NCBI GenBank assembly: GCA_964019135.1 | Contig: OZ025265.1 | Location: 20,435,143 to 20,499,142 of the forward strand | Direction of reading: 5' to 3' | From: Arenicola marina | Taxonomy: Eukaryota; Annelida; Polychaeta; Arenicolidae | Length of the DNA: 64,000 bases | Shown: in pieces, positions 283 through 54,500 of the stretch | How the letters are laid out: every line of letters starts with the position of its first letter | Position numbering within the stretch: position 1 is the first letter of the stretch | Made by a program: the position numbers and the translations under genes | Notes under the pieces: generated by a model | Seen by the model: the letters and a program-made list of their open reading frames with translations, nothing else | Told to the model about the DNA's origin: nothing | Databases searched by the model: none

Positions 283-506
283 ATTCACCTTCGAGTGCCG
301 TCTGGAGTGCGACTCCTCGGCGCCCCGGATCGAGTGGTTCAAGGACACGCTGCCGATCCAGACTCCGGATTACGAGACTACATACAAGGACGGTCTCTGC
401 AGACTGACCATCGAGGAGACCTTCTCCGAGGACTCCGCCAAGTGGACCTGCAAGGCCACCACCGACAACGGTGTGGCCGAGACGTCCGCTACACTCAAGG
501 TCAAAG
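283..506 (+). CDS. TTN: Titin exon: C-terminal two thirds of Ig domain 1
   Basis: The exon enters in phase 2 and leaves in phase 1 at AAAG|gtcagt. It starts in the B strand ([19 protein letters not shown]), contains the core Trp, then EDSAKWTC and ends in strand G (ATLKVKG). The A strand must lie in an exon upstream of the window. SAKWTC replaces the usual SGxYxC, so the Tyr-corner tyrosine is a Trp. It is followed by a 1.4-kb intron. Confidence 0.85.
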
Positions 507-21500: not shown

Positions 21501-24500
21501 TCTCATCGAACCCGGTCCCGCATGCTATTCGTAAGGTATTGGCGGGCTCTCAGTCTTTGGATCCCTTTCTTCTGGATCTGTCGTGTAGGCTTTGATTTTA
21601 GCCCCATCTTCATCCGGGCTGCTTCTCCCATCACGGGGGAGCGATTGGCGGTGGGGGTAGCGGGAGTTGGTAGTGGGGGCTGGAGGGGGGGGGGGGGGCT
21701 TGTAATCCCGTGACCTAGTGGGTGGTGGACTCGGCTTACATGGATTGCCCTCCAAGTCAAGAGGAAGCCGCAGTGATTGGGAGATGGAGAGAGAGAGAGC
21801 GCCCTGGATCCGATGCCGGCCTACTAGACGGTGTGGGTTCAAACCCCACCTACCGTTGAGGCCTTTTTAACTCTTTCATGTTCTCGGGTTTCCTGGCCAG
21901 ATTTAGCTTTACTAGGCATAAAAGCGGCCTGGTGTCTGAGACTACTTCAGTAGAGTCCTGTAGATGTAATCCGTGTTCTCTCACTACCCAAAACTGCTGA
22001 AGATCAGACAGAAAATTGTGTGTGGTATATATATATATATACATATATAATAATAATAATAATATCATTCTTTGACTGACGATGATACAGCAAATCTGGT
22101 GTTGCATATACACATTGTAATGAATAGTATCCCCTCACTGCCGCAACGTGCTGCGGGTTTTTCGCCATCCCCTTTACAATAGTTTGGAGGACCCGGGTAA
22201 TTTCGCTCGCGTCTAACGTTTACACCTGATGCTAGTTTGGCGCTGCGTATGTTTTTGTAAGAAAAAGGCGACACGGCCATGGTAAATGATGCTACAGCGG
22301 GGTATCTTTGTCTGCCAGCCTGACGTCAAACTCAGCCGTCTGGCTCTGCTGTGAGGCCAACGAACATAGATGAGACTAATTCCCCCCCCCCCTCATACCC
22401 CTTCCGACCCCCCCCCCCCCCCGACCATAGCCCCACCCCCCCTACTGCCCCCTTTCCCCAGGACCTTAACCCCCAGCCCGTTCCAGAGCCCCCCCCCCCC
22501 CCTGATACCGCCTCCTTCCGACCCACCCCTATCATAGCCCCTCCCCCCTACCATAACCCCCCCCCCTACCGCCCCCTTCCCCCAGGACCTTAGCCCGCCC
22601 AGACCGCTCCAGACCCCGCCTCCTCTCGGATGTGCTCATCAATTAAGCACTTACTCATCGTTTGTTAACTAGAAACAGTTACGCCACCCTGGGCCAGACT
22701 GTAGACGGAAGCTTAAATATATACCCCAACACGTGGGGTTCGCCAAACCTCGGCCTATCACATCACATCACACAATATCACATCTTAGTAGCATATATTT
22801 TGACTCTAGTTGCAAATCATAGAGCCCACTCTGGGTACTTAATCATACAACCACTTCTTTGATCCCCGTGAGGTACTCCCCTTGTCCCAGGTGCTAGCGT
22901 ACACACCGGAGCGCACACGTTTAAGTTGGTGTCGAGCTCAGATCTCCATGTCCTCGGGTCTATTTTGGTGCACGGTGGTTCTCCATGGAGTGTTCCTCAC
23001 CAACTGGTGACTTTATCATAAACTATATTGACTTGGTGCTTTGTGCTTTGTGCCACCTTTATGCACAGATAAGCTAAAATCAGACCGATAATTCTCCCGA
23101 TGTAATGAAATATACAAGGGCAATAATCAGAGCATGATATAGAGGCCATATATACGCCAGGCACCTTTGTCCTGCATAAAGGAGTATAAAACTCACCCAC
23201 TAGAAAGAATCTCCTAAGCTTTTACCCTCGATCCGTATATAAGCAGATAATGATTATAATCAGACTGCGGTGTGTGGAAGACATGGAGGATCGTCTTTCG
23301 ATTTCTTTTTCTTGCGTTTCCCCCCATATTAACCCAGCACCTGCGACTTGGAGCGAGTCAGCCAGCTTGACTCATCGTTTTGCCCGCTTTGCCCTAAATA
23401 CGCCGCAAATATGTCTGACATTTGTTATCCAAACGGGAGTATTTTCGTTTACTTTTCCTGGCTAAATATAACGCCGACCAGGTGTTATGCTTATAGAGGC
23501 CGCTGTCGTGTTATCATTGGTGTAGGGATAGGGGAGGTGTGTGTGTGTGTGTGTGTGTGTGTGGGGGGGGGGTTAATCAGATCTGGGAGGAATCCCGCTG
23601 TTCGTGGCTTCAGTCTGCGACTAGGCAGTGCCTTTGGGTCTCTCCACTGGAGAGTGAATCTCTTATTTGCATATATGCAGCCGCTAGATGGCGACACCGC
23701 ATAGTAGGCGCATGGCTAGATTATCAGGCTCTCCACTGAGCTAGCGAAGTCATGATAACACTACAATACGAATGCATGATACCACTGTAATGCAGGGTCT
23801 CAAGCCGAAACAGTTTCTACCGATTGCCCTCTGTCTGGACAATTGTCTACTTTAGCGCGTGTTTGCACAAAGGGGATCTCCAACTGACAACGGGGCCGCC
23901 CCGATAGCTCAGTGGGTTAGAGCGCTCGCCTTGAGTGCTCTGGCCGCATGAGAGTCTAACGGCACTTGGATCGGTGGTTCGCGCCCCGCTGTGGCCATGT
24001 CTGTGTGGTTGCAGGATAAAGATCCCATGTCCTTCTTCGTAAAGAGTAGGGGGTTACCCCCGGGGACATGGGTCCACTCTTCCCTTCCTTGACCCATTGA
24101 CGCGATATGACCTCAAGTGGTTAAAGCGTCCTGAATATACAACCAACCAACCCAGACTATCCTCTTGTCCCATTCCCTATGCGTTATCACGTTATTAAAC
24201 CATCTGTGCATTATTAACCCCATATATTTTCCGTTGCAGCCTCCATACTTTATCATGTTATTACCACCCAGATTCTCTCCTTGTCCTATTCCCCATACGT
24301 TACCACGTTATTCAGCCCATACCTTTCTCCCATTGCAGCTTCCATACGTATCATGTTATATAAACCCTCTATAAGCGTTACCACGGTATTCAGCCCCACA
24401 CCTTTCTCCCATTGCAGCCTCCATGATCCCTCCGGAGTTTCCGGAGAGGCTTCACAACAAAGCAGTCAAGGAGGGCGACTCTGTGCGGTTTACCGTGCGC

Positions 24501-27500
24501 GTCCAGGGACAACCAGCCCCAGACGTCACGTGGTACCGAGAGGGTTCACAGATCGTCAGCTCACCGGACTTCGAAATCCTCCAGGACGGAAATCTTCACT
24601 CGCTCTACATTCCCGAAGTGTTTTGCGAAGACTCCGGAACGTTCTCGGTCAAGGCCGAGAACCAAGCCGGACTGCAGTCATGTACTGCTGAGCTCAAGGT
24701 GCAGGGTGAGTATTGGAAGTGCTTCCCGTGCTAGGGGATGGCCGTGTTTAGGCCAAATGAATGGGATGAATCATCCATCTATGCATCCATGCATGCAAAC
24801 ATCCATCCATCTATTTATCCATCGATCCATCCAGTCATTTATCCACCCATCCATCCATCCATCCCTCCCTCCCTCCCTCCCTCCCTCCATTTATCCAACC
24901 ATCCACCCATCCGTCCCTTCATCCATCTAGTTACCAATCCTAAAAACAGAAGACATGGAACACTTTTTGAGAGAACAACCATCGTGTAAACAGTTAATAT
25001 GAGTAAGTTACTGCTGTACCGGTATTTATACGGGAAACCCTTGGAATCATGATCCACAAATGTGTTTATTCTTTAATCTGGTGAGGGGCGCGTCTCGCTC
25101 TCAACATGAGTGTCTGTGTCGCTCCGTACCTGTCTTTGTAATACCGACCCCCCTGCTCATCCGCCCGAAGAAAATGAAAAAAAAAGAGTCCTTGACATTG
25201 ACCTCGACTCCCGCGTCCCTCTCGACCTAGCATCCGGGAAGTCTGTCATTAACTCTTGAGCTTACCGTCTTTTTGCTTTTTTCTTCTGCGAGATTGTCCC
25301 ATTGAAAAATCGTAAAATGTTCATTGTGGAGCGGCTATTTGTTATGCAATGTGAAGTTCCTTCTGATGTCACTAACTCCTTAAAAACCGTTAGAAGCAGG
25401 AAATTATATATGTAACCTACACTTGTACTATTCTCTCTCCATACATTTATCGTCCTGGGAGGTTCGTTGAGCCAGTTTCGCCCTTGTTTGCAAAAAAGCG
25501 GCCTGAAGCACCAATTCGTTGCATTTCATCTCCTTTCATTATTTTTCTCAGTTCATTTCCTTTCATTATTTTGATTATATCTTTCATTTTATTTCATTAT
25601 TGTTCATTTCGTTATTTTTCGTTTCATGTCATTATGTTCCTTTCATCTAATTTCATGTCATTATGTTCCTTCCATCTAATTTCATGTCATTATTTCCATC
25701 TAATTACGTGTCATTATTTCCATCTAATTACATGTCATTATTTCCATCTAATTACATGTCATTATTTTCCTTTCATCTAATTTCATTTCTAATTTCTAAT
25801 TTTATGTCACTTTCTTCCACCCCCCCAGGGCCAGCCCCCAAGCCGATGGCCCCTGTGACGAGGAGCCCCGTGACCGCCGTGATGGACAAGCCCAAGCCGG
25901 CTCTCTACACGCCGCCCAAGCCCAGTCCAGCGCCCCCGGCACCCCGGGAGCCCACCCCGACCTGGAAGCCCCAGGTGGAGCCCACCCCCACGTGGAAGCC
26001 GCAGGCCGCTCCTCAGACGGTCGAGCCCGCGCCCATGTGGAAGCCACAGCCCATCCCGCAGGCTAGGCCTACGCCACAGTTCACCAGGGTAAGTGTATGG
26101 TCTAAGGCCCCGATTCAACCAGATTAAAATATGCATTTTTTGCTTTTTGGTCTGTTGTTTTTAAAACATTTATTTCATGCTTGTATGTGTTTTTCCGTTT
26201 TTTCTAAATATTATTTTTTTCTGATGTAAAATGCTAAATATAAAGATTGTAAAACAGCTATGGTTACACTTTTAAAGGGGTTGCTGTGTCATGGGGTTAT
26301 GTTACGTGCCAATATATATATATATATATATATATAATAATAGTAAAGATATGGAGGCAAAGAATTCATATATATATTCCTTGCATATCGTATTTTGTCA
26401 AATTGTCAAATTTTTGTCAATTTTTTTTTATCTCGTATCAAAAATCACACGCCTGTAGATTCATCTCATTTTTCTCTTCCTACGAGACTTGGTACCTACA
26501 TATGGGGCATCCAACCCCATTTTGCTGTCCCAGGAGGTCCAATTTACCCTTCAGGTGTACCAAAAAGTTGCCTGAAACACACAAAAAAAGTAATATAATT
26601 TCATTCCATGTTTTTCTCACCTCTCTCAGCCACTGATGGACAAGACGGTGAAGGAAGGAGAGCGCGCCACGCTAGAGTGCGCCACCATCGCCTTTCCGGA
26701 GCCGGAGCGCGTCCAGTGGTTCCGCGACTCCGTGGAGATCCACAGCTCGGCGGACTACCAGCTGACCTACGGCAGCGGCGTCTGCACGCTCACTATCGCC
26801 GAGGTGTTCCCCGAGGACTCCGGCAACTTCTCGTGCACCATCACCGTCAACGGTGTCAACAACAGCACCACTATGTACCTCAAGGTCACTGGTAAGTCGT
26901 GCGGGGCTTGTCGCTAGTATGGTATGGCGGCTAGATATCATGGTTTATGGGGTGTATGTGGTCCTTAGTATGGAAACGTATATTGGTGTCTGTGGTGACT
27001 TGCTATGGCTAGGTCTAATGGTATATGCGGTATCTATGGCTAGATTTAACGCTATATGTGGTAACTATCGCTAGATTTAATGATACCTGTGATGACGGTT
27101 GTCGTTAGTATAGATATTTACTATACTGGTATTTTTTATAAATCTTTGGCTGGGTCAAATGATGTCTGTGATAGATATGGCTAAATCTAATGATATCTGG
27201 GATAAATATGGCTAGATCTAATGATATCTGTGATAAATATGGCTAGATCTAATGATATCTGTGATAAATATGGCTAGATCTAATGATATATGTGATAAAT
27301 ATGGCTAGATCTAATGATATCTGTGATAAATATTGCTAGATCTAATGATATCTGTGATAAATATGGCTAGATCTGATGATATCTGTGATACATATGGCTA
27401 GATCTAATGATATCTGTGATATCTCTATGACCAGATCTAATGATACCTGTGACACTCTCTATGGCCATATCTCATGGTTTATGTTCTGTGGTAACTCTCT

Positions 27501-30500
27501 ATGACTAGATTTGTGATATCTGTGACACTCTCTATGGCCATATCTCATGGTATATGTTCTGTGATCACTCTCTATGGCCGTATCTCATGGTATATGTTCT
27601 GTGATCACTCTCTATGGCCATATCTCATGGTGTATGTTCTGTGATCACCCTCTATGGCCATATCTCATGGTGTATGTTCTGTGATCACCCTCTATGGCCA
27701 GATCTAATGATACCTGTGACACTCTCTATGGCCATATCTCATGGTATATGTTCTGTGATCACTCTCTATGGCCATATCTCATGGTGTATGTTCTGTGATC
27801 ACCCTCTATGGCCATATCTCATGGTGTATGTTCTGTGATCACCCTCTATGGCCAGATCTAATGATACCTGTGACACTCTCTGTGGCCATATCTCATGGTA
27901 TATGTTCTGTGATCACCCTCTATGGCCATATCTCATGGTGTATGTTCTGTGATCACCCTCTATGGCCATATCTCATGGTGTATGTTCTGTGATCACCCTC
28001 TATGGCCAGATCTAATGATACCTGTGACACTCTCTATGGCCATATCTCATGGTATATGTTCTGTGATCACTCTCTATGGCCATATTTCATGGTGTATGTT
28101 CTGTTATCTGCAGCGGCCCCGCCGGCGGCACCCCGCAAGCCGGACAGCCCACCCATGTTCGGCATGGGGCTCACCAATCAGCCCCTTCACCCGCACCAGA
28201 CAGCACACTTCGAATGCAAGGTGGACGGCCACCCGCCGCCAGAGATCCTCTGGACCCGGCGCGGCCACCCCCTGGTGGACAAGACTCGGTCAGTAGCCAG
28301 GCGCGCGCTCTGATTGGTTAAAATAGTTCACGGGATATTCTCACCTCAAGGCCCTGATCTCTCACTCTGTTGTTTATAAAACCAAAAATGTAGAGCGATT
28401 CGGGCTTCGCTTGTGTAAGGTTGATATGGATAGATATACAATGCTGCATGATTTGGATATTAGGGGTCTGGAAGGGATAAATGGCGACACGCGACATTGA
28501 CCCCCAAACTCCGATACTGAGATCTGAAAAAAGCCACATCGACACAGATTTTTGAAAAAACGACACTTAGCCAAAAAGCGACACGGAAGGTCGTGAAAAT
28601 TCGACATTCAACATTCGACACTGAGCATTTTGAAAAATCGACCCTGGATGCTAGACCCCCTTTCCAAACCTCTGATATTATCAAAACTATATGCAATGGA
28701 GTGAAGTTGCGAACTAGATCTATTTATATTTTTTTTCTTTTTACGAACTACATAATGCAGACATTTGAGTTGACACTGAAAACCAATTTGACCCATTATT
28801 TCTCTACATATGAAGTGTTCATCGTACTTTATTGGTGGCATTCCAGGTACAAGTCAACCTACGACCAGTACACGGGCACCACGACTCTGACGATCCTGGA
28901 CCTGCGCGAGGAGGACGAAGGAGAGTACACGTGTACCGCCATCAACAGTCGGGGAGAGGCCTCCACCTCCGCCCTGCTGCTCGGACACGGTCAGTATATA
29001 GATATATATCATATGCCTTCTTATATTGATCCGGCAGCTTGCATACGCCAGTTGATAGCCAAATCGGTTGAATATAAGTCTCTTTTTTGTCTTGCAGTAT
29101 ATTTAAAAGAAAATGGGAGAGTCATTTTTTGTCTTGCAGTATATTTTTAAAAAATTGGGAAAGTCATTTTTTGTCTTTTAGTATATTTAGAAGCAAATGG
29201 GAAACCCTTTTTTTGTCTTGTAGTATATTTAAAAGCCAATGGGAAAGCCTTTTTTTGTCTTGTAGTATATTTAAAAGCAAATGGGAAACCCTTATGTGTT
29301 AGGTAAATGATATTTAGTGATGGATGGATGTCATTCCTTCACTGTATGGGTCTGATACTTCTTCGATCTACTTTTGCATTATTATATATATACATATATA
29401 ATTATTTTTTTCTTGACTCAACACACATTCAACACATCAACACAAACATTGAATCCTATATATATATTTGTTGACAGAGCGTTACCAGGACTGGCTCCGT
29501 CAGCAGCCCGGCTACGTACCGGAGAAGGCGCCTCCCGTGGCCGCGCCGGTGGCTCCCCCTATGCCGCCGCCCAAGGCCCCGCCGGTGGCGCCCCCTGCCG
29601 AGCCTATCAAGCGCACCCCGACGCCCACGCGCACCAGCCCGTTCTACAGGCCCATGTCTGAACGTGTCTTGGACAAGCCGGCCGAGACGAAGCTCTCCGA
29701 CTACGAATCGGATGGCACGGATGGCGTAAGTAGATTTTTGTAAATGGGTCGTGAATCGGTCGTCACATATTGCAAAATTATATATATATATATATGTTTC
29801 CCTCCTTTACCAAATAAACCACATCCACCACAACCACAACCACAACCCTCGCAGGGATTCAAAATATCTAGCGCCAAGGTTGTGCACTATGTTTGATTTA
29901 ATGAACACATTCCCCTTATAATGCCATGGATTCAAAATGCCCTGCAACAAGACTTTGCACTTGTTTTGATTTAATGAACATCCCCCCCCCCCCCCTTATA
30001 ATTCCAGGGATTCAAGATACCCAGCCCCAGAACCGTGCATAATGGTTGATTTAATGAACACGTTTTCCCATTGTTATTGCAGAGCTTCAAGGTGTCCAGC
30101 TTTGAGAAGCGCCTAATGAAGGAGGTTGACTTCCGCGAGGGTCGCGTTGACCCCAAGCACCACGTGCCTGAGGCTCGCGAAGCCTTCGACGTCAACCTTC
30201 CCCTGGACCAGGCCTACGCGCCGCGCTTCGAGCAGAAGCCAAACAACTTCAAACTCATCGAGGGATCGGACGCCACCTTCGTGTGCAAGGTCACCGGCAG
30301 GCCGTCCCCACATGTGAGTAGAACGTTTGATATATCCGTATCGTGCAACGCTATGAGAAGAGGAGCGTGGGGTGTCGTGGGGCGGGGTCCGGGGGGGGGA
30401 GAGGGAGGGGGAGTCTGGTATTTAGTTACGGTGTGGTAGGGTTGGGACTCATTTTATTGCGAAGCTAAGCAATTTTTCGCGATCGAAGGTCACGTGTAGG

Positions 30501-33500
30501 TCGTTCCCATATGTGTGTGGAGGGGGTGTAGGGTGCTGACTGTAATCTTGGGGGGTCATATTCTAAGCGGAACCGCTTACACGCACATTGCCCATGTATC
30601 CATGGCCTCAAGATATATGTGTTATCGCACACTAAGTACATTTTAGCTATGTTTTTTTTATCTCATTGCCTCTCTTGCATTTACCCCGCACTAAGTTGGT
30701 AAACGGGCTCAACTGCAGAATAAGAGGCCTCGAGGTTCGAACCCTGGTACTTGCATCTGGGTCATCTTTCATCCAGCTCAATTCCACTGTCCCGGGAGGA
30801 AAGTTGGCCTGCAACACAAACATTTCCCAAATCGTTTCCTTTTCTTACCTATAATCTTTGGCCTTTGACCGTTGACATATAAACTTTGACCTTCAGATCA
30901 CATGGTACCACTTTGACCGTTGACCTATATTACCTTTGACCTTCAGATCACATGGTACCACTTTGACTGTTGACCTATAATAACCTTTGACCTTCAGATC
31001 ACATGATACCAATTGGCCGTTGACCTATATAACCTTTGACCTTCAGATCACATGGCACCACTTTGGCCGTTTACCTTCAGATCACATGGCACCACTTTGA
31101 CCGTTGACCTATTATAACCTTTGACCTTTGACCTTCAGATCACATGGTACCACAATGGCCGCCTGATCCGGCCGTCGAACCGCTACGAGATAAAGCTGAC
31201 GAAGGACGGCTACGTGTCTCTGAGGATCCGCATCGCCTTCCCTGAGGACGGCGGCCATTACACGTGCTGCGCCACCAACGTGGTCGGCCGCGACACGTGC
31301 TCCTCCGAGCTCTACGTGGAGGGCGGACAGATCGACCAGACCTCCTACGTCGAACCGGGCACGCTCATGAGGATGCTCCAGAGGTAGAGCTATGGGACCT
31401 GGGGCGCCGGGGTGGGGCGCTGGGGCTGGGCAGCGGGGCGGTAGGGTTGGGGCGATGGGGTGGGGCGCTGGGGCGGTGGGGTTGGGGCGCTGGGTCTTAA
31501 GGCGTTGGGGTTGGGGCGGTAATAAAATTATTGGGCACTGAGTGATATATTTAAATGTTTAATTTAAAGTATAATTCTAGGTTTATAATGGTTACACTAC
31601 TTCCGTATTTCTTCCGCTTCTGTGGCCTCCCAACTTGCCTTCCGTTTGGAAGCGCTATTGTATTATAGCTGAGGGCAAAATATAAATGATAATATTAACA
31701 TTACCCTTTCTCCCCCACCCCTTCCCCCATCAGCCCGGACGACGTGCGCGGTGACGGCGAGCCCGGCGGTGTCTCTGAGAAGCACTTCCGGCCGGTGTTC
31801 CGCAAGGTGCCCGAGGACAAGGACGTCCAGGAGGGGCTGATGGTGCGCTTCGACTGCATCGTGACGGGCCGCCCGGCGCCAGAGCTCTTCTGGTACCGTG
31901 ACGGTACCCGGGTGTATGACGACAGCCTCCACAAGATCGTTATCAACGAGAGCGGCATCAACTCGCTCATCATCCACGCCGTTGCCCGGGGCGACGCGGG
32001 ACAGTACGTCTGCGTGGCTAAGAACAGAGCCGGCGAGGATTCCTTCAAGGTCCATCTCAACGTGACGCGTAAGTTTTGTGCATATTTAAATTTTTGGGAA
32101 TTTGGATTTTCCAGCATAATTGAAATAGCGAGGTGTATTATTCTGACCTCTGTCCCGTGTGGTAAAGTGTATTATTCTGACCTCTGTCCCGTGTAGTGAA
32201 GTGTGTTATTCTGACCTCTGTCCCGTCTAGTGAAGTGTATTATTCTGACCTCTGTCCCGTGTAGTGAGGTGTATTATTCTGACCTCTGTCCCGTGTGGTG
32301 AAGTGTATTATTCTGACCTCAGTCCCGTGTGGTGAAGTGTATTATTCTGACCTCTGTCCCGTGTGGTGAAGTGTGTTATTCTGACCTCTGTCCCGTCTAG
32401 TGAAGTGTGTTATTCTGACCTCTGTCCCGTGTAGTGAGGTGTATTATTCTGACCTCTGTCCCGTCTGGTGAAGTGTATTATTCTGACCTCTGTCCCGTCT
32501 GGTGAAGTGTGTTATTCTGACCTCTGTCCCGTGTGGTGAAGTGTATTATTCTGACCTCTGTCCCGTGTGGTGAAGTGTATTATTCTGACCTCTGTCCCGT
32601 GTAGTGAGGTGTATTATTCTGACCTCTGTCCCGTGTGGTGAAGTGTATTATTCTGACCTCAGTCCCGTGTGGTGAAGTGTATTATTCTGACCTCTGTCCC
32701 GTGTGGTGAAGTGTATTATTCTGACCTCTGTCCCGTGTAGTGAAGTGTGTTATTCTGACCTCTGTCCCGTGTAGTGAGGTGTATTATTCTGACCTCTGTC
32801 CCGTGTGGTGAAGTGTATTATTCTGACCTCTGTCCCGTGTGGTGAAGTGTATTATTCTGACCTCTGTCCCGTGTAGTGAGGTGTATTATTCTGACCTCTG
32901 TCCCGTGTGGTGAAGTGTATTATTCTGACCTCAGTCCCGTGTGGTGAAGTGTATTATTCTGACCTCTGTCCCGTGTGGTGAAGTGTGTTATTCTGACCTC
33001 TGTCCCGTGTAGTGAAGTGTGTTATTCTGACCTCTGTCCCGTGTAGTGAAGTGTATTATTCTGACCTGTCCCGTGTAGTGAAGTGTATTATTCTGACCTC
33101 TGTCCCGTGTGGTGAAGTGTATTATTCTGACCTCTGTCCCGTGTGGTGAAGTGTATTATTCTGACCTCTGTCCCGTCTGGTGAAGTGTGTTATTCTGACC
33201 TCTGTCCCGTGTAGTGAAGTGTATTATTCTGACCTCTGTCCCGTGTAGTGAAGTGTATTATTCTGACCTCTGTCCCGTGTAGTGAAGTGTATTATTCTGA
33301 CCTCTGTCCCGTGTGGTGAAGTGTATTATTCTGACCTCTGTCCCGTCTGGTGAAGTGTGTTATTCTGACCTCTGTCCCGTGTAGTGAAGTGTATTATTCT
33401 GACCTCTGTCCCGTGTGGTGAAGTGTATTATTCTGACCTCTGTCCCGTGTAGTGAAGTGTATTATTCTGACCTCTGTCCCGTGTGGTGAAGTGTATTATT

Positions 33501-36500
33501 CTGACCTCTGTCCCGTCTGGTGAAGTGTATTATTCTGACCTCTGTCCCGTGTAGTGAGGTGTATTATTCTGACCTCTGTCCCGTGTGGTGAAGTGTATTA
33601 TTCTGACCTCTGTCCCGTGTAGTGAGGTGTGTTATTCTGACCTCTGTCCCGTGTAGTGAAGTGTATTATTCTGACCTCTGTCCCGTGTAGTGAGGTGTAT
33701 TATTCTGACCTCTGTCCCGTCTAGTGAAGTGTATTATTCTGACCTCTGTCCCGTCTGGTGAAGTGTGTTATTCTGACCTCTGTCCCGTGTGGTGAAGTGT
33801 ATTATTCTGACCTCTGTCCCGTCTGGTGAAGTGTATTATTCTGACCTCTGTCCCGTCTGGTGAAGTGTATTATTCTGACCTCTGTCCTGTGTCGTGAAGT
33901 GTATTATTCTGACCTCTGTCCTGTGTCGTGAAGTGTATTATTCTGACCTCTGTCCCGTGTCGTGAAGTGTATTATTCTGACCTGTCCCGTGTAGTGAAGT
34001 GTATTATTCTGACCTCTGTCCCGTCTGGTGAAGTGTATTATTCTGACCTCTGTCCCGTGTGGTGAAGTGTGTTATTCTGACCTCTGTCCCGTGTGGTAAA
34101 GTGTATTATTCTGACCTCTGTCCCGTCTAGTGAAGTGTATTATTCTGACCTCTGTCCCGTCTAGTGAAGTGTATTATTCTGACCTCTGTCCCGTCTGGTG
34201 AAGTGTATTATTCTGACCTCTGTCCCGTCTGGTGAAGTGTATTATTCTGACCTCTGTCCCGTGTAGTGAAGTGTATTATTCTGACCTCTGTCCCGTCTAG
34301 TAAAGTGTATTATTCTGACCTGTCCCGCCCTCTCGCCACCCCCCACAGCGCGTCAGACGACGCAGGCCCCCCGCTTCACGGAGCGCATGATGAACCAGAC
34401 TGTGCCTGAGGGACAGGCTGTCGCCTTCCATGCGCACGCCACGGGAGTCCCCGTACCCATGATGTCCTGGCAGAAGGACGGCAAGATGATCGACCACGAT
34501 GACCACTACAAGGTCAGTCAAACGCTAAGCACAAGCGATTTCAAGGTCAGTAAAACTCTTAAGAATAAACGATTTCAAAGTCAGTCAAGCGCTAAGAATA
34601 TAGAAGTTTTTAAGGTCAGTAAAGTGCCAAGTATAAACGATTTGAACGTCAGTCAAGCGATAAGTATAAACGATTGCAAGGCCAGTCGAACGTCATCTAA
34701 AACGCTTATAATGCCAAGTCAAATGCTGATAAAAAATTCCAATGTCAGTTAAACGCCACCTCCAACGCTAATACTTAACTATTTCTTTTGGACCAGTTTA
34801 CTGATTTCTTTTCATTTACCGAGCTATTTCCAAATGGGCACGTTATTCCCGCTTAAATCACACTGTGATTTAGCAAATCTGTAATTGTTGAGTTCCTTTT
34901 TCCGTCGCCAGGTGGAGACTGAGGGCGGACGCTGCTCTCTGTACATCGCGCAGACGCGACCGGATGACAATGCCTGGTTCCAGTGCACCGCCGCCAACGT
35001 CGGCGGCACCGCCTCCAACAGGGCCAGACTGATCGTGCAAGGTGAGAGTCCTGCTAGCATACATAACAGCCTCATGCAAGGTGAGAGCCCTGCTAACATA
35101 CATGGCGTCCACATTGTGTCCACGGTTCTCCCCGTCATGGGTATGGATCGCCTTTGTAATGGAAAGTGGATCCGATACTGTGATGTTGCTCGCGAACCTC
35201 ATGGCTTGCTATGCTATGACCGACAATTCAACTGAATTAAACATTTCCAGGCGGGTGGCTTAAATATAGTAAATACTTAAAAATTCTTAATGGTTAGACA
35301 TTAGCAGATGTGAATTCCAACCATAAAGGAGATAAATATATATATATATGTCCAATTGTCTTGCAGCGCGAAAACGTACGTAAAATGCGACATCTATATG
35401 TTTCTTACGTTTTCGCGAAAACTAATAAAAACCTAACCTTGGTGACATTGAATATAAGAACTATACATATACCACATGTTACCTAGGTCTTCGCGCTGCA
35501 AGACAATATTGGAGTGGTTGGGCGAACGTAAACCTATGTGAGTCAATCTGTATGTCAATGTATCGCCTTGGCTTTCAGTTGAAGCGCGCAAGCCGAGCCC
35601 CGAGAGACGGCTCAGCATACCCAAGAGGACCATCACTACACCGTAAGTGTATAGCCTGCTTTCCTCGGGTTTGCCTCCAGTTTCACCGAAAACATGTTCT
35701 TTGATGGATGGAAGTAAAACAATTTTCGCGTATGCATATAAAAGACACTCGTCCCTTCGCTCTAATAGAGTCGCTTACCGGGTTCCTGCTAGTATCATAT
35801 AATATGACATAAGTATCTTGGCGAACATCGCAGTTGCTGTACCGATGCCTTATACTGTAAGACGGTAGGACTCCCTTTGCTGGCTTTCACCTTGTTCGAC
35901 GTCCGTATAGGATGAGAAAGGCTTCAGAAAATATTGGGTCTTCAATTATTATCCATAACTTGGGTCAAAGACGTCTTTGGTTATGCGTTTTGTTGTGGTG
36001 ACATCAATGTTTGCTTTATAACTTCAACCCCCCCGCCCCCGCCCGCCATCCCACCTCACCCCACCCCACCCCACCCCACCCACTGACCTGCCCCGCCAGA
36101 GTTCTGTACGACCAAGTCGGCTACTCCGACACTGTACAAAGTGGGGTCGTCCAAATATATCGCACTGGAAGATCAGGATCCATGTAAATATCATGCTCGC
36201 GCATGATTGGTTAAAATTTCGACTTTGAGATAACGTTGCATACTGCTTCCCCCGTTTCTTGGTCTGTTCATATAGCGAGGTTTCTTGGTTAAGATTGGTT
36301 GCGTAGCCTGGAATGGGGCCGAGTTTCTGGGTGATATTCCAATAGAATTTGCTGCTGTATATAGTGTATATATATATATATTATATATGTGTGTATTGTG
36401 ATTACTTATTTAGTACGGCCGATGGGTGATAAATAACCGACTGGGCGAAAGAAAATTCTTGCAATCCTGCCTATTGCAAAACCTGATCATAATATTAATT

Positions 36501-42500: not shown

Positions 42501-45500
42501 CACATTTTAGCCACCCTTCCTTTTCCTGCCATGGCATCAATACTAAAACACGGGAAACAACTCTCAGGCGCTTAACCCCCAATTCTGTGTGCTATTGTTA
42601 ATTAATATAATTACGGAAAAGAACTACTTAGCTATAATAAATAGAAACAAAAATCGCGTTAATTTCTTTTAATTTTGCGGTAATTTTCAATTAATCTAAT
42701 ACTTACTAACATAGAAACTCAAATGGCTTTAGACTTATACCTGCGTCAACAGTAATAAAGGCATTATGATAAAAATGAAAATACATTCTCATGAAGCACT
42801 GACACGTTGCTTTGTCCGCTGAGGGGGCTGACTAGTGTATTTAACCAGACTATACACCTTTCATATAAATGGTTAGCCTAGTATGGTCACTAATATGCTA
42901 CAATTCCCCGAATCCCCCTCTTCCATTTCACGACTGCCCCGTGGAGCTTGTTCTTGTTGCAGACAACTAGATGTGTGATCAGAATGAACATCTGATGATT
43001 ATAGTTTACATTTATTATTATTATTATTTACATGTTATTATGGTACTGTTTTGTTGCTAGTGCATGTAATAACGCTGTTCTCTCTTGTGGCTTCTATCTG
43101 TAATGATCATTAACTTGATACAATAATGTCTTTATAACCACATGCGACTCGTTGAAACTTAACATGTCCAGATATCCAGGTGCAGTTACTGCAAAGGATA
43201 TTATGTTTCCATAATTTCCGCCTCTGTAACTATACCATTGATAGCTGATCTTCCCCTGGGGAAATCTTTGTCGTAGGTGGGGGGATTCGTTTGAAGAGTT
43301 TTTATTGGTAGCCATGAGTGACAAACAGAACCGCCTTCAATCTGTGCTTTTCCCGATTCTATCTCCCCTGATTGGCAAGTTTTTAGGACCGACTGATATT
43401 TCACGATATAAGTACATGTGTTACGCCTATTTTGTGATAACAGGGAACCAGCCTACAGGCCTACCGCACAGGGCATGTCATCTATTCTTACATCTTACGC
43501 ATATCTTCCAATAACAGGGAACCAGCCAGCAGGCCTACCGCACAGGAAATGCTATATATTGTTACATCGTACGCATATTTTGTGATAACAGGGAACCGGC
43601 CTACAGGCCTACCGCACAGGAAATGGTCCAGCGCGGACCGGAAACGGAACCTGACGCCGCGGACATGTTCAATCGCGACAACCCGCGACCTCCCAAGTTC
43701 AAGACCCAGATCAAGCCGCAGCTCGATGTGCAGGAGGCCGAGCCGGCCCACTTCGAGTGTCGCCTGGTGCCCATCAACGACCCCGACATGGTGGTCGAGT
43801 GGTACAAGGATGGCAAGCTCCTCAAATCAGGTCAGTGGGTCGTTGGTTGGTTTAAAAATACAATATGTTTCATAATAGGACGCTTTAATGTTCATAGCTG
43901 CGTGGGTGGGTTGTTGGTTGGTTTAAAAAGACGATATTTTTCATAAGAGGACGTTTTAAGCTTCATAGCTGCGTGGGTGGGTTGTTGGTTGGTTTAAAAA
44001 GACGATATTTTTCATAATAGGACGTTTTAGTCTTCATAGCTGCGTAGGTGGGTTGTTGGTTGGTTTAAAAAGACGATATTTTTCATAATAGGACGTTTTA
44101 GTCTTCATAGCTGCGTAGGTGGGTCGTTGGTTGGTTTAAAAATACAATATGTTTCATAATAGGACGCTTTAAGCTTCATAGCACGACAATGGGTAGATAG
44201 GGGTCATGTTTCCTGGATTAAGCTTCTTTGCGAAGAAAGGCATATAGAATATTTATCCTGCACAAAGATAGACATTTGCACATGTGGGGTTGGGTTCGAA
44301 CCACGCACCGGCCGCTTAGAAGTGGTTCAGTTATTATGGGAATCAGTTATTGGGACGTTATCTGTATAATTATTTTCACTTACTAATTTAGGGAGGCAGA
44401 CAAATTTTACATATCTAGACAAATAAAGTAAGAATAAAGTAACAATCCTGCCATGCATTAATATCTTTCTGTGCATGTTTAGGACATCGCTTCAAGCCGA
44501 TGCATGACTTCGGGTTCTGCGCTCTGGACATTCTGTACACGTACCCAGAGGACAATGGCGTCTACATGTGTCACGCCAGCAACAAGTATGGAACTGACTC
44601 CACAGAGGCGGTTGTCAGATGTGCAGGTAACGGCGGGAGCCTTTCACTGAAATAATAGTTTATCTCCTACATTATTCACTTATCATTGCTGCAGTTACTG
44701 GTCAGTTACGCAAGGAAACACATTTCGGCGGTTGGATGTCCCCTGTAGCATTTCCACAGCCACGACTCAATTCTAAATAATAACTGGTAAATAATAAGCA
44801 ATATTCACAGGCATTATTGTAAATCATAAGCATTGGTGCTAAATTATAAAAAAAACATAATGTTTTGTTCGGCCCCTTTGGACTAAATTAGGCCAAGGCA
44901 CCTAAACCATAAGCATTAGTGCTAAATAAGCAGCAGTTTTGCCAAACTTGAAGCGGCCATCATGCTCCATTTCAAGCAATTGTGTTGAACCCCAGGCATT
45001 TGTTTACTATAGTGATCATTGTGTGTGTTTCACAGGCAAGATCTCTGTGATCTACGCCAGCCAGCTGCCCGAGGGCGACAAGAGCATGCGGGTGATCAAC
45101 GCCATGGAGGAAGGCATTCGCAGGTTAGTTTATATGCTTTCTTGTAAGTCCCTCTAGAAAAACTTCGCAGGTATTTTATATGCTTTCTTGTAATTCCCTC
45201 AAGGAAGGCCTCCGCAGGTTAGTTTATATGCCTTCTTGTCATTCCTTCTGTGAAGGCATACGCAGGTTAGTTCATATGCCTTCTTGTCGTTCCCACTATG
45301 AAGGCAGTCGCAGGTTATGTCATATTAATCAGAGTCTGTAAAAGCTAATTCAGTGTACATCTTTTACTTGCAGTTGATTAAGCAAAAAAAAACAACACTC
45401 GCATTTGATGTCATCGCCGGCATTTTGTTACATATCACGCATGGTGCTCTTTTGCAGAGATCAACTGAAGCATGAAGAGCCAGAGACTGGCCCGGAGCCC

Positions 45501-48500
45501 GGCGCTCCCCTGTTTGACCTGATGCCCGAAGCGGTCCAGGTGGAGGAGGGAGATACCGCCAAGTTCATGGTCAAGATCGGAGGTCATCCGCGACCCCGAC
45601 TCACCTGGTGGATCAACGGAGCCATCGTCGTCAATGTGAGCTCCATTTTCCAGTTTCGGTTTCGGTTCCGATATCAATACGCCAGTGCCATTGTTGCCTT
45701 GAAACAGTTTTGGTATTTTTCAATTTAGCCATGGTTTATCCGACGTTATGGCCTTCGTAACCCATACCCGGCAGCATGCCTTGCTCCATGAACAAACACT
45801 CAACTCATGGACAATTCAACTGCAGGTCAGCAGGTCACTGTTTTGGGTTCTGACACCTGCATCATCTGGGGCCCATGTGCATTACACTATCCCCGGGGGT
45901 GTTCCGTGATTTAGTATTGCGTTTATGTACACAAAAGTGGCCTAAAGCTAAAAATCGCCTTTCGGTTCCACCAAACAGAGTCAGCGCTTCCAGCTGCATT
46001 ATGACGGCATGATCCACGTGCTGGACATCCCCAAGGTCCGTGACTACGACCAGGGTACCATCAGGGTGGTTGCTAAGAACCCCCTGGGAGAGGCCGAGTG
46101 TTCGACTACCCTGACCGTCCTGCCCAGAGAGGACTGGAGGTCCAGGTTAAAGCAAGCTCCCAGATGTGAGTGTGGTCTACTCATGCGTCGATAACGATTT
46201 ATGCAATTATGAGTATCTAATTCTAATCAGATGTTGTGCCTGTCACGGAGCTAATTTTATGACATTTATTAGTTTATATATATGTCAACTAGTGTCAACT
46301 AGTCAACTAGTAAAGGACCATATGTCGAAATCGAACCGAAACAAATTCATCGCGTGTGTAAATAATGTATATTCAGGCAAATAAATGTTGCGTGTGTAAA
46401 TAATTTATATTTAGAGAAATAAATGTAGCGTTTGTAAATAATTTATATTTAGGGAAATAAATGTAGCGGTTGTAAGTAATGTAAATAAGCGTGTGTAAAT
46501 AATATATATAAAGTCAAATAAACGTAGCGTGTGTAAATATTTCATATTTAGTCAAATAAATGTGTGTAAATTATGAAATAAAGTTTCATCCAAACATGAT
46601 TGCAGCTACGGTGGAGGTTGAGCTTGAGAAGAAGAAGAAGGTGGAGCTGAGGACTATTGAGCTGGATGTGGCTCTCAGGAAGCCCAAGACCACAGTGATG
46701 GAGCTCAGAGCGCTCGAGAGATGTGAGTACCCGTCCTGGGGAACCTGGGGCCGGCCCGGTAGCCCAGTGGAGCTAGATCGCTCGCCTTGAGTGCTGTGGC
46801 CGCCTGAGAGCCTAACGGCACGTGGATCGGTGGTTCTAGCCCCGCTGTGGCCATATCTGTGTGGTCGCAGGATTAAGATACCATGTCCTTCTTCGCAAAG
46901 AGTAGGGGGTTACCCCCGGGGACATGGCTCCGGTCTTCCCCTCTCCCATTGACGCGATATGACCAAAAGGGGTTAAAGCGTCCTGAATGTACAACCAACC
47001 TTTCGCTCCGAAATTCCCTCCATTTTCGGGCCTATAACCTTCACTTTTAAGTGTCCATTCCACGGTTGTTCGTCAGTTTGCGTGTTATGACCAGTGAGTG
47101 TTTTGTAACAATAGTTGTATGTTGTATGTTAATTGCCATATATATCTATACATATCCACGCTCGTTCCCCAAGGGAGATAGTGTTAATTATTTAGGTCCA
47201 CTGTGCTGTATTTATAACTGGATACGACGAAGAACACTTAAATGATCAGAACAATACTCAATATTTGTAGGTGCCGCCTGCATTGAAATATTTCATAATT
47301 TGTGTTTTCTATGCTTTCCCTGCGTCCTTTCCTAACCCCCGTTTTCTTCCGCAGCCAACCAAGAGCGCGCGCTGAACTACAAGGACGAGGAGGTGCAGCG
47401 CGCTACCATGGAGATGAACCTGCAGCACACGCAGTTTAAGCGCGTGCAGCCCGGCCGCGTGCTCAACGTGTGGGAGCCGACTGCCCACGTGGACAGCGCG
47501 GTGCACATCGCTCGCGCCAGGGCCATGCTCCAAATGCCCGACGACTACCAGCGCACGGAGCACAAATATGTGGTCGAAAAGACGCTACCCGGCAAGAGGG
47601 AACCGCCCACGTTCACCAAGCCGCTGGCCAACATACCCGCCAAGGAGGGACAAGTCGTCAGGTGAGTGACGTAGCAGAGGTTTAAGTTAATTTCTGGGTC
47701 CGATTTTTTTTAATTACCTAGCGTTCTATCGACATTTGACGCTCAATTTGTCGTTTTTTGGTGCGACGTTTTACTGAAACGTTACTTCACAACTATAACT
47801 ATAAATACCAGTTCAGTATTTTCCTCATGTACTACGATTGATGCGTAAGTCGTAGGGTATAGATATAGCATCAATATGATATGGAGTTTCCTTTCCCCAT
47901 TGACGCGGTATAACCATAAAGTGATCAAAGCGTCCTGAATATTCAACCAATCCCATTTTCTCCGCGTCCCAGGATGGAGGTTCTCTACACGGGATTCCCG
48001 ACTCCGGACATCCAGTGGTTCCGCGAGGGCGTGGAGATCCAGCCGTCACGTGACTTCCAGATCAGCACAGCCAACCAGAAATCGTTCCTGGTGATCCCGG
48101 AAGTGTTCATGGAGGACGCCGGGACGTACACCGTCCGGGCGTACAACCAGTTCGGGATGGCCGAGTGCCGCGCCGTACTGACCGTCCAGGAGGACACCAA
48201 CAGGGTCAAGGATGCGCCGCCAGAGTTCCGGGTCCAGATGCACGACATCTCCATCCGGATCAGGGAGCCGGCGACCTTCGACTGCCAGATCACCGGCCAC
48301 CCCAGGCCGGAGGTATACTGGGTCAAGGTCAGTGTCAGTTGTCTATATATATATATCTATCTAATAGTATATATATATTATGTATGTATCTTTATGTATA
48401 TTAATGATAAGCTTTATCCAAAAGACCTCAGGCCCACAGTACAACATGAAAACATATATGTAATAGGTAATATGACTCTATTTGTGGGAGCGTTTATTAT

Positions 48501-51500
48501 ATAAAACGTATTTTATTAGTTACATTTAGTCATTCACGACGTGTTTTTGCCATACCGGAAGTGACGTGACTTGTGACGTTACATGCCAGAATACCAATCT
48601 GGTATTTAGCTTTTTATAATACGGATTCCCTACACGTGTCGCACATATATATATCGATGTGGTGCCGGTTTATCAATTGATAAATTTGACTTCGGTGGCA
48701 ATAAAACCTGTGCTGGGGCTGTTTTTACTTCATTTCATCTAAACAACCTCGGATTTTCATGCTCATGTGTACGCTAAACTGGTTTGAAACACCGACCCAG
48801 CCTCCCTAACTGTAGGACCTTAAAATGATCCGCTTCCTATGATTAACCTGTTTAGAATCCATGGCTAGTCGATATCCTTTGAATACCTCGGGGTTGTATT
48901 TTGTAACAGGATGGCCAGAGAATGACCGACAGCACTCGCTGGAAGTTCATCGTGGAGGAGGAACACGTGACGCTGCTTATCTACGAGGTGCGCCCCGCCG
49001 ACCAGGGTGTCTACGAGTGCAACGTCTTCAACAAGCTGGGCAAGGCAACATGCACCGCCAGGCTCAATGTCGAAGGTGAGATATTGGTGATACTTTTGTT
49101 TTCTTTCATTCAGATATTGGTGATACCTTTTTTTGTGGTGAGATATTGGTGATACCTTTGTTTTCTCGGTGGTGGTGGTGGTGGTGTGTGTGTGTAGGGG
49201 GGGGGGCATCTTGGAATTAAATATGTGCCAAGCAACTTGTAATACTGCAGACATGTCGAAGGTGAGATGCAATACAGGGAGGCAGACGGGAGGGTAAGGA
49301 TTTTCATTAAGATATTGGTGATACCTTTTTCTTGGTGAGATATTGGTGATACCTTTGTTTTCTCGGTGGTGGTGGTGTGTGTGTGCGTGTGGGGTGGGGG
49401 GGGGGGCATCTTGCAATTAAATATATGCCAAGCAACTTGTAATACTGCATACATGTCGAATGTGAGATGCAATACAAGGAGGCAGACGGGGTAGGGATTT
49501 TGCACCTACATATAAATCAAGTGACTGTCACATACAACTTATAATAAAGTTGTGTGTAGGAACTGGTTTTTGTGTGTCATAATATAGTTTGTTATCCTAT
49601 GTACCGGTATATCATTTTTATATTTATATAGTTATAGTTTATATTTATATACATAGCATATCCTTACGTTTATTATTTATATATCGCTGTGTCTGCAATA
49701 TAAAGTATCCCGAGATTAAAAAGAGAAAAAAAAAAAATACATATATGTATATATATATATATCCCGAGAGCCACGTAGTGAGTGACGTCACGTGTCTGGT
49801 ATTCTTGGTGTTGCAGGCCAAGTGGAGCCGACCAAGCAGCAGCCTGTGGCCACACAGCCAATCAGCCACAAGGCCCCGCAGCTGATCGAGCCACTGAGAG
49901 ACCAGCATATCAATGAGGGCGAGTCCCTGACCTTCTCCTGCAAGGTCGTCGCTCAGCCTGGTGAGTTCATATTGGAGTCTATGGGGTACCGTTTAACCAT
50001 GGCAACGACCTTCCAACCCGTGCCTCTAATTCACTCCTGTCAATCCGATGTCATGGTATTATGTTCTTCGCTTAGTATTATTTAATATGGCGATTTGCTG
50101 TCACATGCTGGTCTCATTGGAAATCCATTTATTATTAAAGTATTATTTCATCAGTGTGACCTTATGTAATAATAAAATGATAAATAATACACTTATTATC
50201 CTTAATTATTATTTCACAAATTCAATATCCTATGCAATGATAATAAATACTATTTGAAAGTTACATTACCGGTACGCAATGTTTTCATAACATTCTGTCA
50301 TTTATAGAATTATTACTTATTATGTTAATTTTGAAATTTAATTTGTTCACCTCACATATGCATCCTTTCGAAATATAATCATGTATAATTTGTCAATTTC
50401 TCACTTGTTTCCGCCTACCGCAGAGCCGATCATCCAGTGGTACTACAACAACCAGGTCATCAAGCCGTCCAAGTACTTCCAAATGCAGTCTGGTAACGGC
50501 GTCCACTCGCTGAGCATCGCCGGCGCCTTCCCCGAGGACGAGGGCGTCTACAAGTGCACGGCCAGGAACCAGGCCGGCGAGGTCACCTGCATCGCGCATC
50601 TCAGGGTTACCCGTGAGTCCACAACCTTGGATATTGATTTCACCTTGTCCTCAGACCAGCAAGGCCGCTCCGATAGCTCAGTGGGTTAGAGCGCTCGCAT
50701 TAAGTGCTATGGCCACCTGAGAGCCTGTAACGGGCACGTGGATCGGTCGGTGGTTCGAGCCCCGCTGTGGTCATGTATGTGTGGTCACAGGATAAAGATC
50801 GCATGTCGTTCTTCGGAATAAGTAGGGGGTTACCCCCGGGGACATGACTCCACTCTCCCTTCCTTCTCACATTGACGCGATATGATCAGAATTGGTTAAA
50901 GCGTCGTGAATATAAAACCAATCGTCAGTGGCAATTGTTTTGGGGGAGTAATTTTTATTTAGTTGTTAGATTTGGAATACGTTTCTGATTAGTCGAGCGG
51001 GAGATTACTACTTTTGTATTACTAAATTGTGCTTTAATATTTGCTGTAGTGGAATGTCGATAAGAAACGGCGCTGCGTTTTGAAGAAACTAGAGTATGGC
51101 GACCATAATGACAGGATCGTTATGTTTATTGCTGGCGCAGTTTAGCCCTGAGTGTGCGCAAAACGAGCCTAACACCCCAATCCTGTTCTCTTACCTTCAT
51201 CACCTTCTCGTGTGGTCTTCCAGCAACCATGGCCAGCGAACCTGAGCTGGACCTTCACAAGAACGTCGTGCCGCCAAAGTTCGTGAAACCCATCAACGGA
51301 CTGGACGTTGTCGAGGGCAACCAGGCCGTCTTCGAGGCGGTCGTTGCCGGGCAACCGCCACCGGAAGTGACGTGGTTCCGCGAGGGCCACCAGATCCAGC
51401 ACAGCGAGGAGTTCCAGATCGTGCGCGATGGCGACAAGTGTCTCCTGGTCATTAAGGAGGTCTTCCCCGAGGATTCTGGGATCTTCACCTGCCGCATCAG

Positions 51501-54500
51501 TAACCCGGCCGGCGTGGCCGAGTCTTCAGCGGAACTCTACGTCGAAGGTGAGTCAGTCAGTTTAAGCGGTTCCCGGCTAGCTGGGTGTGTTCCCCTCCCT
51601 CGCATGGTATTGTTAAATGGCTCCCCTTCCTGGATAACTCCAGGCCCAGGAGTTATTACCGCTATCTGCTTTTACCTGACGGGCGATATGATAGCGATAA
51701 ATGGGCTTGATATACGTGATCCATGCGTGAGCTCGGGGAGTTGAGCGATATTATAGTCGCTGTGACTATACATTCAGTGTTTTTTTTTTTTAGAATGCTG
51801 ACCCAGTGTGATTTGCAGTTATTATTAATACCAGTTACAAAAAGTTAATTCATCCATGCATCATTTTCATTTGAGATAAAAATCCTAAAATATATATAAT
51901 ACCTAAATTATTTATGACAATCGAATGCAAGGTGACAATCCCTCACTCCCTCCGTTCACATATAGTGTCGCGTTCTGCGCCGTTTCGTATCATGATATGC
52001 ATTTTAAAGTTCCATCTCACATAATCATTCCAACTTGTGATACCCCATGTTCATTCAAATACCGACATTGACATAATTCGATCTCATCCCTTGTGTGCCT
52101 TCATCCTCTGTGTGTGTGTGTGTTTGCTTGTGAAAAGACGAACCGTTCATGTTATGACCTAATAACCTCCATCTTTCAAATTTCAGCTTTTGCATGATGC
52201 ATGAATTATCGCATACCTTAATGTTATCTTGATCTTATGCACCGCAATTTTTCAAATCAGGAAAAAAAGAAATTGTTCGTAAAATGGTTTCTGCTCTAGA
52301 TATGGTCTGGGAAGAAAGTTGCGGTGTATTTTCTATTTTTTTCAGGCTAACTGATATGTTTGCATCCAACGTTTTTTCCACTAACCTCGAAATGAATGTT
52401 GATGTGTTTTTGTCCCCCCGTGTTTGCGATAACGAGCTTAGTTTCAGTCTAGTGCCCGACCTGTGGTTTGTGTTGAGCATGACGCTACGTGTCTTGACTG
52501 CCATGGTGAATGACGTCATACCCAAGTGTGAGCATTATAGTGTGGTAAGTGGGACTCACTAGAAGAGTCATATAATACAGAATAGTTATTGCCCATATAG
52601 GTTCCTGATATCTTTTTGCTCCCTGTTTATGAAAACGTCTTAATAAGGTTAATAAGGTTAATAAGATATGTAGACCGCCTGACATGGTAATGTATTTAAT
52701 CTTCGATACGTAGTTCAATAATAATAATAAAACAAAAACCTGTATAAGACTTACTTGCATCTTTATGTGACATCATTAAGTTCAAACACTCGTCGGTTTG
52801 ACCAACGGAATTTCTGTTGTTTCCTTCTCGTTTAATGTCTAGGGTCAGTGATTGAAATAGAATACAGCTGAAGTTTCTTTAGAGTGAATGAATTAGTTTA
52901 TTGCAGAAAACGGCCCCCGGGCAAAGTGCATACATAGTGATATTCTGTTGTGTGTGCTCATTGTGCGTGGGCTGTAGGACAAATATAATATACACACAAT
53001 TCAGCTAGCTTCCCCGAATGTAAACATATTATGCACAAAAGCAGCCAGTTGACAGATTAAATCTGTTTCTTTATTGGTTTATTATAATAATGATAATAGT
53101 AGTAACCCACACGAATAGCACTCAAACCCCACTTGCAGATAAAATGATAATGACATGTCCACCATTGCAACAAATTGTGATTACTATCTATCACGTGTTA
53201 GACATCACCGTTCACTTGATTATTAGCTCTTTTAAATTGCTCCATTGCTTGTCCGAGTGAAGGAACGCTCTTCCATGTTAGATCGAACCATTGTTTCAAC
53301 ATAACTCACGTATGACTCACGTCTACTATTTACTAAAATAATCCGTTTCGTGGGCTCCTAACATCTCATGAACCGAGGGAATGTATATATTATGATTCCT
53401 ATGGTTCAAACATACCATGGAAGATGGACAGAGTGAATATATTAGATAAAAAAATGACGATTCCTATGGTTCTAACATCGCACGGCAGATAGACCGAGTG
53501 AACATGTCTATATATTATGATTCCTAATGGCTTTCCTCACTGTTTGCAGACCCCACAAAGGTCTCTGCCGCCCAGGTACAGCTGGCCCAGCCCACCAAGG
53601 CGGCGCCCCCGGCCTCCGCCGAGCTCCGGGTGAAGCAGCCCGAGCGCAAGGCGCCGACCATCATTAAGGCCCCGTCCCCCATCAGGGACGTGGCTCCGGG
53701 ATCGGCCACCAAGTAAGTTCTGGAGACATATTCTATATATATGTATATTATGATGTTACATAGTTATATTGGATCCGCCACCAAGTAAGTCCTGGAGACA
53801 GATATGTATGTATATTATGATGTTATATTGGATGGGCCTCCAAGTACGTCTTGGAGACATATCCCGAGCCAGTCTTTTAAAGTAATTTACAAATGTGTAT
53901 ATTATGATGTTATATTGTTATATTGGATCGGTTACCATGTAAATCGTGATGACATCTCCTTGGCCAGTGGTGTGATTTTTCATCCATATCCATTTCATTG
54001 TTTCGGATAGTATATCTGCCTTATTCAATATCTCATCATTTGAGTGCATGGTGTGTACAGCGGTTGGCTAAAGACTTACCGTTGACATAAATATATAACC
54101 TACAAATCACGCTTGATTTTCCTTTCAGACTGACTGTGGAGATCCAGGCCAACCCGCCGCCCAAGTTCGCGTGGTTCACCAACGGCCAGCAGATCAGGTC
54201 CTCTCAGAGGCACAAGATCAGCTTCGAGCAGAACGTGGTGACTCTGCTGATCTTCAACGTGCAGCCCCAGGACTCCGGAGAGTACCTGCTGAAGGCGAAG
54301 AACGAACTGGGAGAGGTCACCTGCAAGACCGTCCTTAACATCAAGCGTAAGATATGATAACTTGTGGTCTTACGGGCGGTCCCTGAGGTGCATGGGCGGA
54401 TCCAGGGGGGCGTCCAGGGGGTCCGGACCGCCCCCCCCTTTTGTTTTGAGGAAGCATGCTCCCCCTCCCCCTTCAATTTTCAAATTCCTGGATCCGCCCC

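Follow-up and report, generated by a model that had tools for sequence, protein, structure and literature searches.

Degenerate tandem copies of an exon end and its splice site lie in the adjoining intron at 9 of the 80 splice junctions of a titin-like gene in the window (i.e., the whole stretch of 64,000 nucleotides analyzed here). A sequence-only reading of the window had claimed repeats across the junctions of at least eight introns; all nine coordinates that it named are junctions of our 41-exon model, each with intronic copies, and the tandem copies across these junctions are confirmed exactly at those places. We consider it probable (roughly 70%) that they are mirage-type minisatellites, i.e., ordinary tandem duplications, arising at the DNA level in a genome rich in repeats, that chanced to straddle an exon-intron border. 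The observations on which this reading builds are the copies, their intronic position, a dense background of intronic repeats, and the scarcity of such repeats in exons. Donors and acceptors are both affected, namely, acceptors 24418, 30083, 31139, and 43592 and donors 34512, 35041, 45123, 49075, and 53712. Six of the nine junctions are clear, 49075 is compound, and 34512 and 30083 are weak. The features are as follows (exon bases are those common to the intronic copies, trimmed except at 30083).

283..62588, + strand: titin-like I-set gene; 41 curated exons, 40 in one frame.
24150..24424, + strand: acceptor-spanning array at the exon start 24418; 7 exon bases; acceptor copies at 24240 and 24339.
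29849..30100, + strand: diverged acceptor-spanning array at the exon start 30083; about 18 exon bases; clearest copy at 30008.
30877..31161, + strand: acceptor-spanning array at the exon start 31139; 23 exon bases; acceptor copies at 30897, 30947, 30998, and 31047.
34509..34687, + strand: 33-bp array from 4 bases inside the exon ending at 34512; weak, as the exon bases equal the splice consensus.
35036..35103, + strand: donor-spanning duplication at the exon end 35041; 39 bp, two copies, 6 exon bases; donor copy at 35080.
43421..43625, + strand: acceptor-spanning array at the exon start 43592; 74 bp, 34 exon bases; acceptor copies at 43444 and 43518.
45108..45325, + strand: donor-spanning array at the exon end 45123; 48 bp, 16 exon bases; donor copies at 45170, 45217, 45265, and 45313.
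49068..49497, + strand: compound donor-spanning array at the exon end 49075; junction copies at 49261 and, altered, at 49461.
53699..53942, + strand: donor-spanning array at the exon end 53712; about 59 bp, 14 exon bases; donor copies at 53784, 53843, and 53938.

The unit size is 33 to 78 bp in eight of the arrays, and the compound array at 49075 has units of 28, 62, or 200 bp. At that junction, the copies contain 9 exon bases under the loosest threshold and a single one under the others, and at position 49261, 16 bases of the junction recur unaltered (ATGTCGAAG|GTGAGAT). The copies at 30083 were detected at the loosest threshold only (18 exon bases, untrimmed), and 34512 is borderline because its shared motif, CAAG|GTCAGT, is also the donor consensus. 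Some changes are common to the intronic copies and absent from the exon copy (both copies at 43592 and three of four at 31139). When the 30-mer of each junction was compared with its own intron and the other 39 under three exon:intron splits, the own intron was the best of all at 6, 7, and 5 of 40 donors and at 3, 5, and 3 of 40 acceptors, with about 1 expected each time. These winners include junctions beyond the nine (43830, 30313, 57608, and 61292), and local repeats likewise cover 30313 (M of 18 to 19) and 8391 (M of 18).

The gene model lies on the + strand, and its 41 exons were reduced by hand from 89 raw predictions. The gene finder scores codon use and splice-site matrices and is blind to repeats; its seeds were 24 exon spans read by eye with the finding already in hand. 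Joining 40 of the 41 exons (283 to 58390) yields a single stop-free frame of 3397 codons, and the phases clash between 58390 and 61292, where either an exon is missing or the last exon begins elsewhere (61215 in a rerun of the finder). Six of eight exons tested passed the Pfam I-set cutoff, one fell slightly under it, and one had no match; the nearest Protein Data Bank chains to the exon 24418-24705 are titin. In the rerun, 38 of the 41 exons came out identical; the exceptions were 31139-31383, 44483-44626, and the start at 61292, the first of which begins at one of the nine junctions. Many further immunoglobulin and fibronectin-type exons, judged by eye, occur in the 200 kb beyond the window.

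It is highly improbable that the arrays are an artifact of wrongly assembled repeats or wrongly modeled junctions. Arrays are hard to assemble, a run of N adjoins another array near 20 kb, and the junctions were predicted from DNA alone, with the exon at 31139 missed in the rerun; against this stand the long open frame over 40 exons, the I-set domains, the mutual differences among the copies, and a junction at a dynein locus (L025; see below), where the resulting protein follows a Protein Data Bank chain of DNAH2 colinearly for 198 residues.

The sequence-only reading also held that the repeats flood the gene with decoy splice sites, and many of the copies do resemble usable sites: of the 28 copies aligned in the window, 25 retain GT or AG, and 17 exceed the 10th percentile of the scores for real sites. 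These figures, together with four decoys (34545, 34614, 34647, and 35080) that would add codons without a stop, are what could be cited for functional copies, which selection would maintain as alternative or recursive splice sites, for instance, to produce titin isoforms. We nevertheless find this explanation very unlikely. Retention of GT/AG in the window was not clearly higher than that of other dinucleotides of the unit (19 of 24 versus 14.5 expected; P = 0.089), and it was not higher in a second test (40 of 50 versus 41.0 expected; P = 0.695), so there is no clear selection on the decoys, and that candidate was rejected. Moreover, 22 of 26 decoys tested (hand-picked, with the site intact) would lead to a premature stop, and in L027 the AG is lost in six of seven aligned acceptor copies. 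A column profile of the decoys that peaks at the splice motif was set aside because the decoys were hand-picked and anchored there. Mirages are also characterized by their splicing; in the gene model, the copies fall within introns, and an open frame results when the exon-proximal sites are used.

The nine arrays had further been judged far more numerous than chance would allow, a view that tests by position do not bear out. Local repeats covered 6 to 11 of the 80 real junctions (11, 9, 8, and 6 at M of 18, 19, 20, and 21), against 13.7 to 20.0 of 80 points drawn at random from the same introns (20.0, 17.5, 16.0, and 13.7, respectively) and 20.7, 18.4, 16.3, and 13.8 of 80 points lying 30 to 150 bases from a junction. 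Exon points in the window were covered in 2.5 of 80 cases (M = 19). Expressed as cover of 24-mers at the same setting, local repeats reach 14.7% in introns, 7.3% across junctions, and 2.9% in exons. In the repeat-density profile of the window, no position at the borders rises above the intronic level; a small bump on the donor side (10.5 to 12.0% at 0 to +18 versus 7.9% at +18 to +42) stays below the cover further into the intron (13.5 to 21.4%, to +210). Since such tests weigh long intronic arrays heavily, they could mask a preference for starting at borders.

Counting arrays gave results that depend on the definition. With the lengths of arrays and introns taken into account (M = 20, m = 4), 7 of 34 window arrays cross a junction, where 6.16 are expected with the period as the unit and 4.41 with the run length (P = 0.13 to 0.42), and at M of 19 to 21 the crossings are about as array lengths predict. 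The minimum P over all settings was 0.010 (M = 18, run mode; 12 of 47 versus 6.55), from a script that counts any overlap of array and exon and gives 12 where the founder script has 8. Under the founder-unit null, in which a unit is placed randomly within 5 kb (about 700 placements per setting), 4 to 8 crossings were observed versus 1.7 to 4.9 expected (P = 0.0014 to 0.66 by setting); in run mode with m = 4 and M of 18 to 20, the figures were 7 to 8 versus 2.2 to 2.4 (P = 0.0014 to 0.0043). Junction repeats are thus in excess relative to exons and in deficit relative to intron interiors, and by array count the excess ranges from none to about threefold.

The overlap of repeats with junctions, which the earlier reading had proposed to score against other positions, was compared in two further gene sets as well. 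The first was downstream titin, where 53 introns were kept from 180 predicted exons after cuts on score, phase, length, and region. Repeats covered 3 of its 106 junctions, versus 9.2 points in introns and 3.4 in exons at M = 19 and 12.4 and 8.7 at M = 18; the last figure, which exceeds that for junctions, is probably inflated by neighboring homologous domains. By array count, 6 to 7 of 18 to 21 cross a junction versus 3.9 to 7.9 expected (P = 0.066 to 0.84), and at M = 20 four of six crossings are matches between neighboring domain exons 386 to 655 bp apart. The second set consisted of four 10-kb stretches around dynein heavy-chain matches, selected blind to repeats among 60 listed matches; the four came from eight stretches initially picked, and their 28 exons were hand-picked after the tandem repeats of all four had been seen. 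Here, repeats covered 7 of 56 junctions versus 10.7 intron points and 3.3 exon points (M = 19). Over the three gene sets, 19 of 242 junctions were covered versus 37.4 intron points (M = 19), or about half, so junctions are less covered than intron points.

By array count, the dynein set differs from expectation: 7 to 8 of 13 to 14 arrays cross a junction versus 2.2 to 3.4 (P of 0.012 or less), including one doubtful crossing (L028, reverse strand at 2759, a run of 17). The most striking arrays are those at the dynein loci. In L025, the unit comprises the last 48 bases of a DNAH2-like exon and 8 intron bases, with 20 intronic copies, 14 of them with GTGAGT and 4 with GTAAGT. In L028, 15 copies of a 103-base unit can be aligned, the unit taking in an exon end of 72 bases and the donor; this array, at 4577, stands out clearly when aligned, but the 24-mer test overlooked it.

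These dynein arrays and the run-mode founder results in the window are the evidence that splice borders might be mutational hot spots, at which an R-loop, paused transcription or replication, or AG/GT microhomology seeds tandem duplications. We hold this to be unlikely, given that junction cover is under the intronic level in all three gene sets, that the window titin arrays cross about as their lengths predict, and that downstream titin shows few covered junctions and no consistent excess of crossings. A mechanism seeding repeats precisely at borders, as the sequence-only reading had suggested, is therefore not supported for titin, where it is superfluous once the intronic background is counted; the dynein excess by array count could speak for it in those genes, and a slight preference for junctions may exist.

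Under the preferred reading of chance duplication, duplications would arise more or less anywhere. Those lying wholly within an exon would alter the protein and mostly be purged, and those straddling a border would survive because the exon-proximal site stays in use and the extra copies become intron. The arrays would then grow and homogenize by slippage or unequal exchange, with selection fixing the exon copy. Changes common to the intronic copies only, as at 43592 and 31139, are as expected for a homogenizing interior beside a frozen exon. The decoy splice sites would be passengers in neutral decay.

The analogy with the mirage minisatellites of amphioxus, drawn in the sequence-only reading, is apt. 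The units combine bases from the exon side and the intron side of a single border and are of minisatellite size. In amphioxus Adh3 (Canestro et al. 2002, as summarized in citing papers), border-spanning units of 10 to 72 bp provide extra intronic splice signals, with length and somatic instability and with normal splicing reported. Both systems consist of tandem units across an exon-intron border with splice-signal copies in the intron, whereas the present arrays occur in other genes, probably of another phylum. The occurrence at both donors and acceptors had been offered as new, but amphioxus globin mirages, in the excerpts available, already span 5' and 3' borders; their units are about 150 to 160 bp, compared with mostly 33 to 78 bp in titin, and they undergo concerted evolution from which border copies are excluded. 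The globin mirages have RT-PCR support, whereas the titin arrays are known from the DNA sequence of one haplotype. Repeats spanning splice sites are also described in lancelet PGBD5, with TnC cited in the same excerpted report (PMC3902484); those are lancelet genes, and the present repeats belong to a probable annelid, at its titin and dynein loci.

In potato RdRp, a tandem duplication copied splice sites, as in titin, and according to the accessible part of that report (PMC4974935) a new intron was born, which is the case only there. The birth of introns from arrays by tandem duplication (Rogers model) was rejected here: an ungapped match of donor and acceptor flanks over 40 introns reached at best 16 of 40 bases, with no intron having duplicated-looking ends. 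Among annelids, earthworm metallothionein introns contain large minisatellites, with extra exon copies absent from the transcript; although likewise intronic, these are not described as spanning splice junctions in the portion of the article available (PMC12783039). Among the papers listed in literature searches, which covered few subscription journals, none reported junction-spanning minisatellites in annelids.

Mirages are probably present in titin and dynein genes of a host outside the cephalochordates, where they were described, and on the present data are no longer a cephalochordate curiosity, being seen in unrelated genes of, probably, a second phylum. The duplicated splice sites, whose order is known, form a natural set on which to study how the spliceosome stays with the copy nearest the exon. 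A broader claim appears doubtful to us: that several per cent of junctions in unrelated genes of this probable annelid bear splice-site arrays, some with about 20 near-identical copies, that duplications in some genes start at borders beyond expectation, and that these arrays continually provide material from which introns and exons can change.

The genome that contains the window comprises 867,369,267 bases in 762 contigs, one of which (C762; 15,942 bases) reads as mitochondrial. The host assignment draws on the mitochondrial gene order, which we take to be that of an annelid, probably a clitellate, and unlike that of amphioxus, which was rejected as the host. All genes lie on one strand, in the order F-E-P-T-nad4L-nad4-C-M-V-L-A-S-L-nad1-I-K-nad3-S-nad2-cox1, continuing with N-cox2-D-atp8-Y-G-cox3-Q-nad6-cob-W-atp6-R-H-nad5. 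Protein genes were named by eye and tRNAs were called with ARAGORN (3 of 25 calls, which were doubtful, were dropped), with rRNAs left out. The genetic code does not discriminate between hosts, as the long mitochondrial frames are identical under tables 5, 9, and 24.

The strongest mirage minisatellite (an array spanning an exon-intron border, a kind known from amphioxus) found in the present analysis lies in L025, one of four 10-kb stretches around dynein heavy-chain matches in the same genome. At L025:2384-3551, a 56-bp unit consisting of the end of a DNAH2-like exon and its donor is present in 21 copies (20.9 by TRF), of which 20 are intronic; most copies are separated by 1 to 3 edits.

The titin-like gene also carries tandem repeats that do not cross its junctions. 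An array at 32133-34321 (64.5 repeats of a 34-bp unit; 95% matches) occupies almost all of a 2,280-base intron and touches neither junction, and the proline-rich exon 38394-39068 includes an in-frame 24-bp tandem repeat (38660-38863) that is entirely exonic. In the 200 kb directly downstream of the window (G000:C20:20499143-20699142), near-identical exon blocks recur at a spacing of ~5.7 kb, which suggests a recent segmental duplication:

238559, 244199 and 249905 (window-based numbering), near-identical exon blocks

A 35-base motif occurs in six plus-strand copies in the window (2756, 7195, 8550, 24005, 46861, and 50781) and seems to be a piece of a longer dispersed repeat, perhaps, as a guess, a tRNA-derived SINE; ARAGORN (bacterial code) detected no tRNA. 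The antisense intronic open frame at 56935-57603 (minus strand; 223 codons), which had only weak, sub-cut-off Pfam matches (FAM198, E = 0.022; zf-RVT, E = 0.038), is possibly, again as a guess, a retroelement remnant. The inverted repeat at 35355-35507 (53-base arms; 79% complementary) is possibly a small transposon, and a spurious 9-base exon from the first gene-finder run falls at this repeat.
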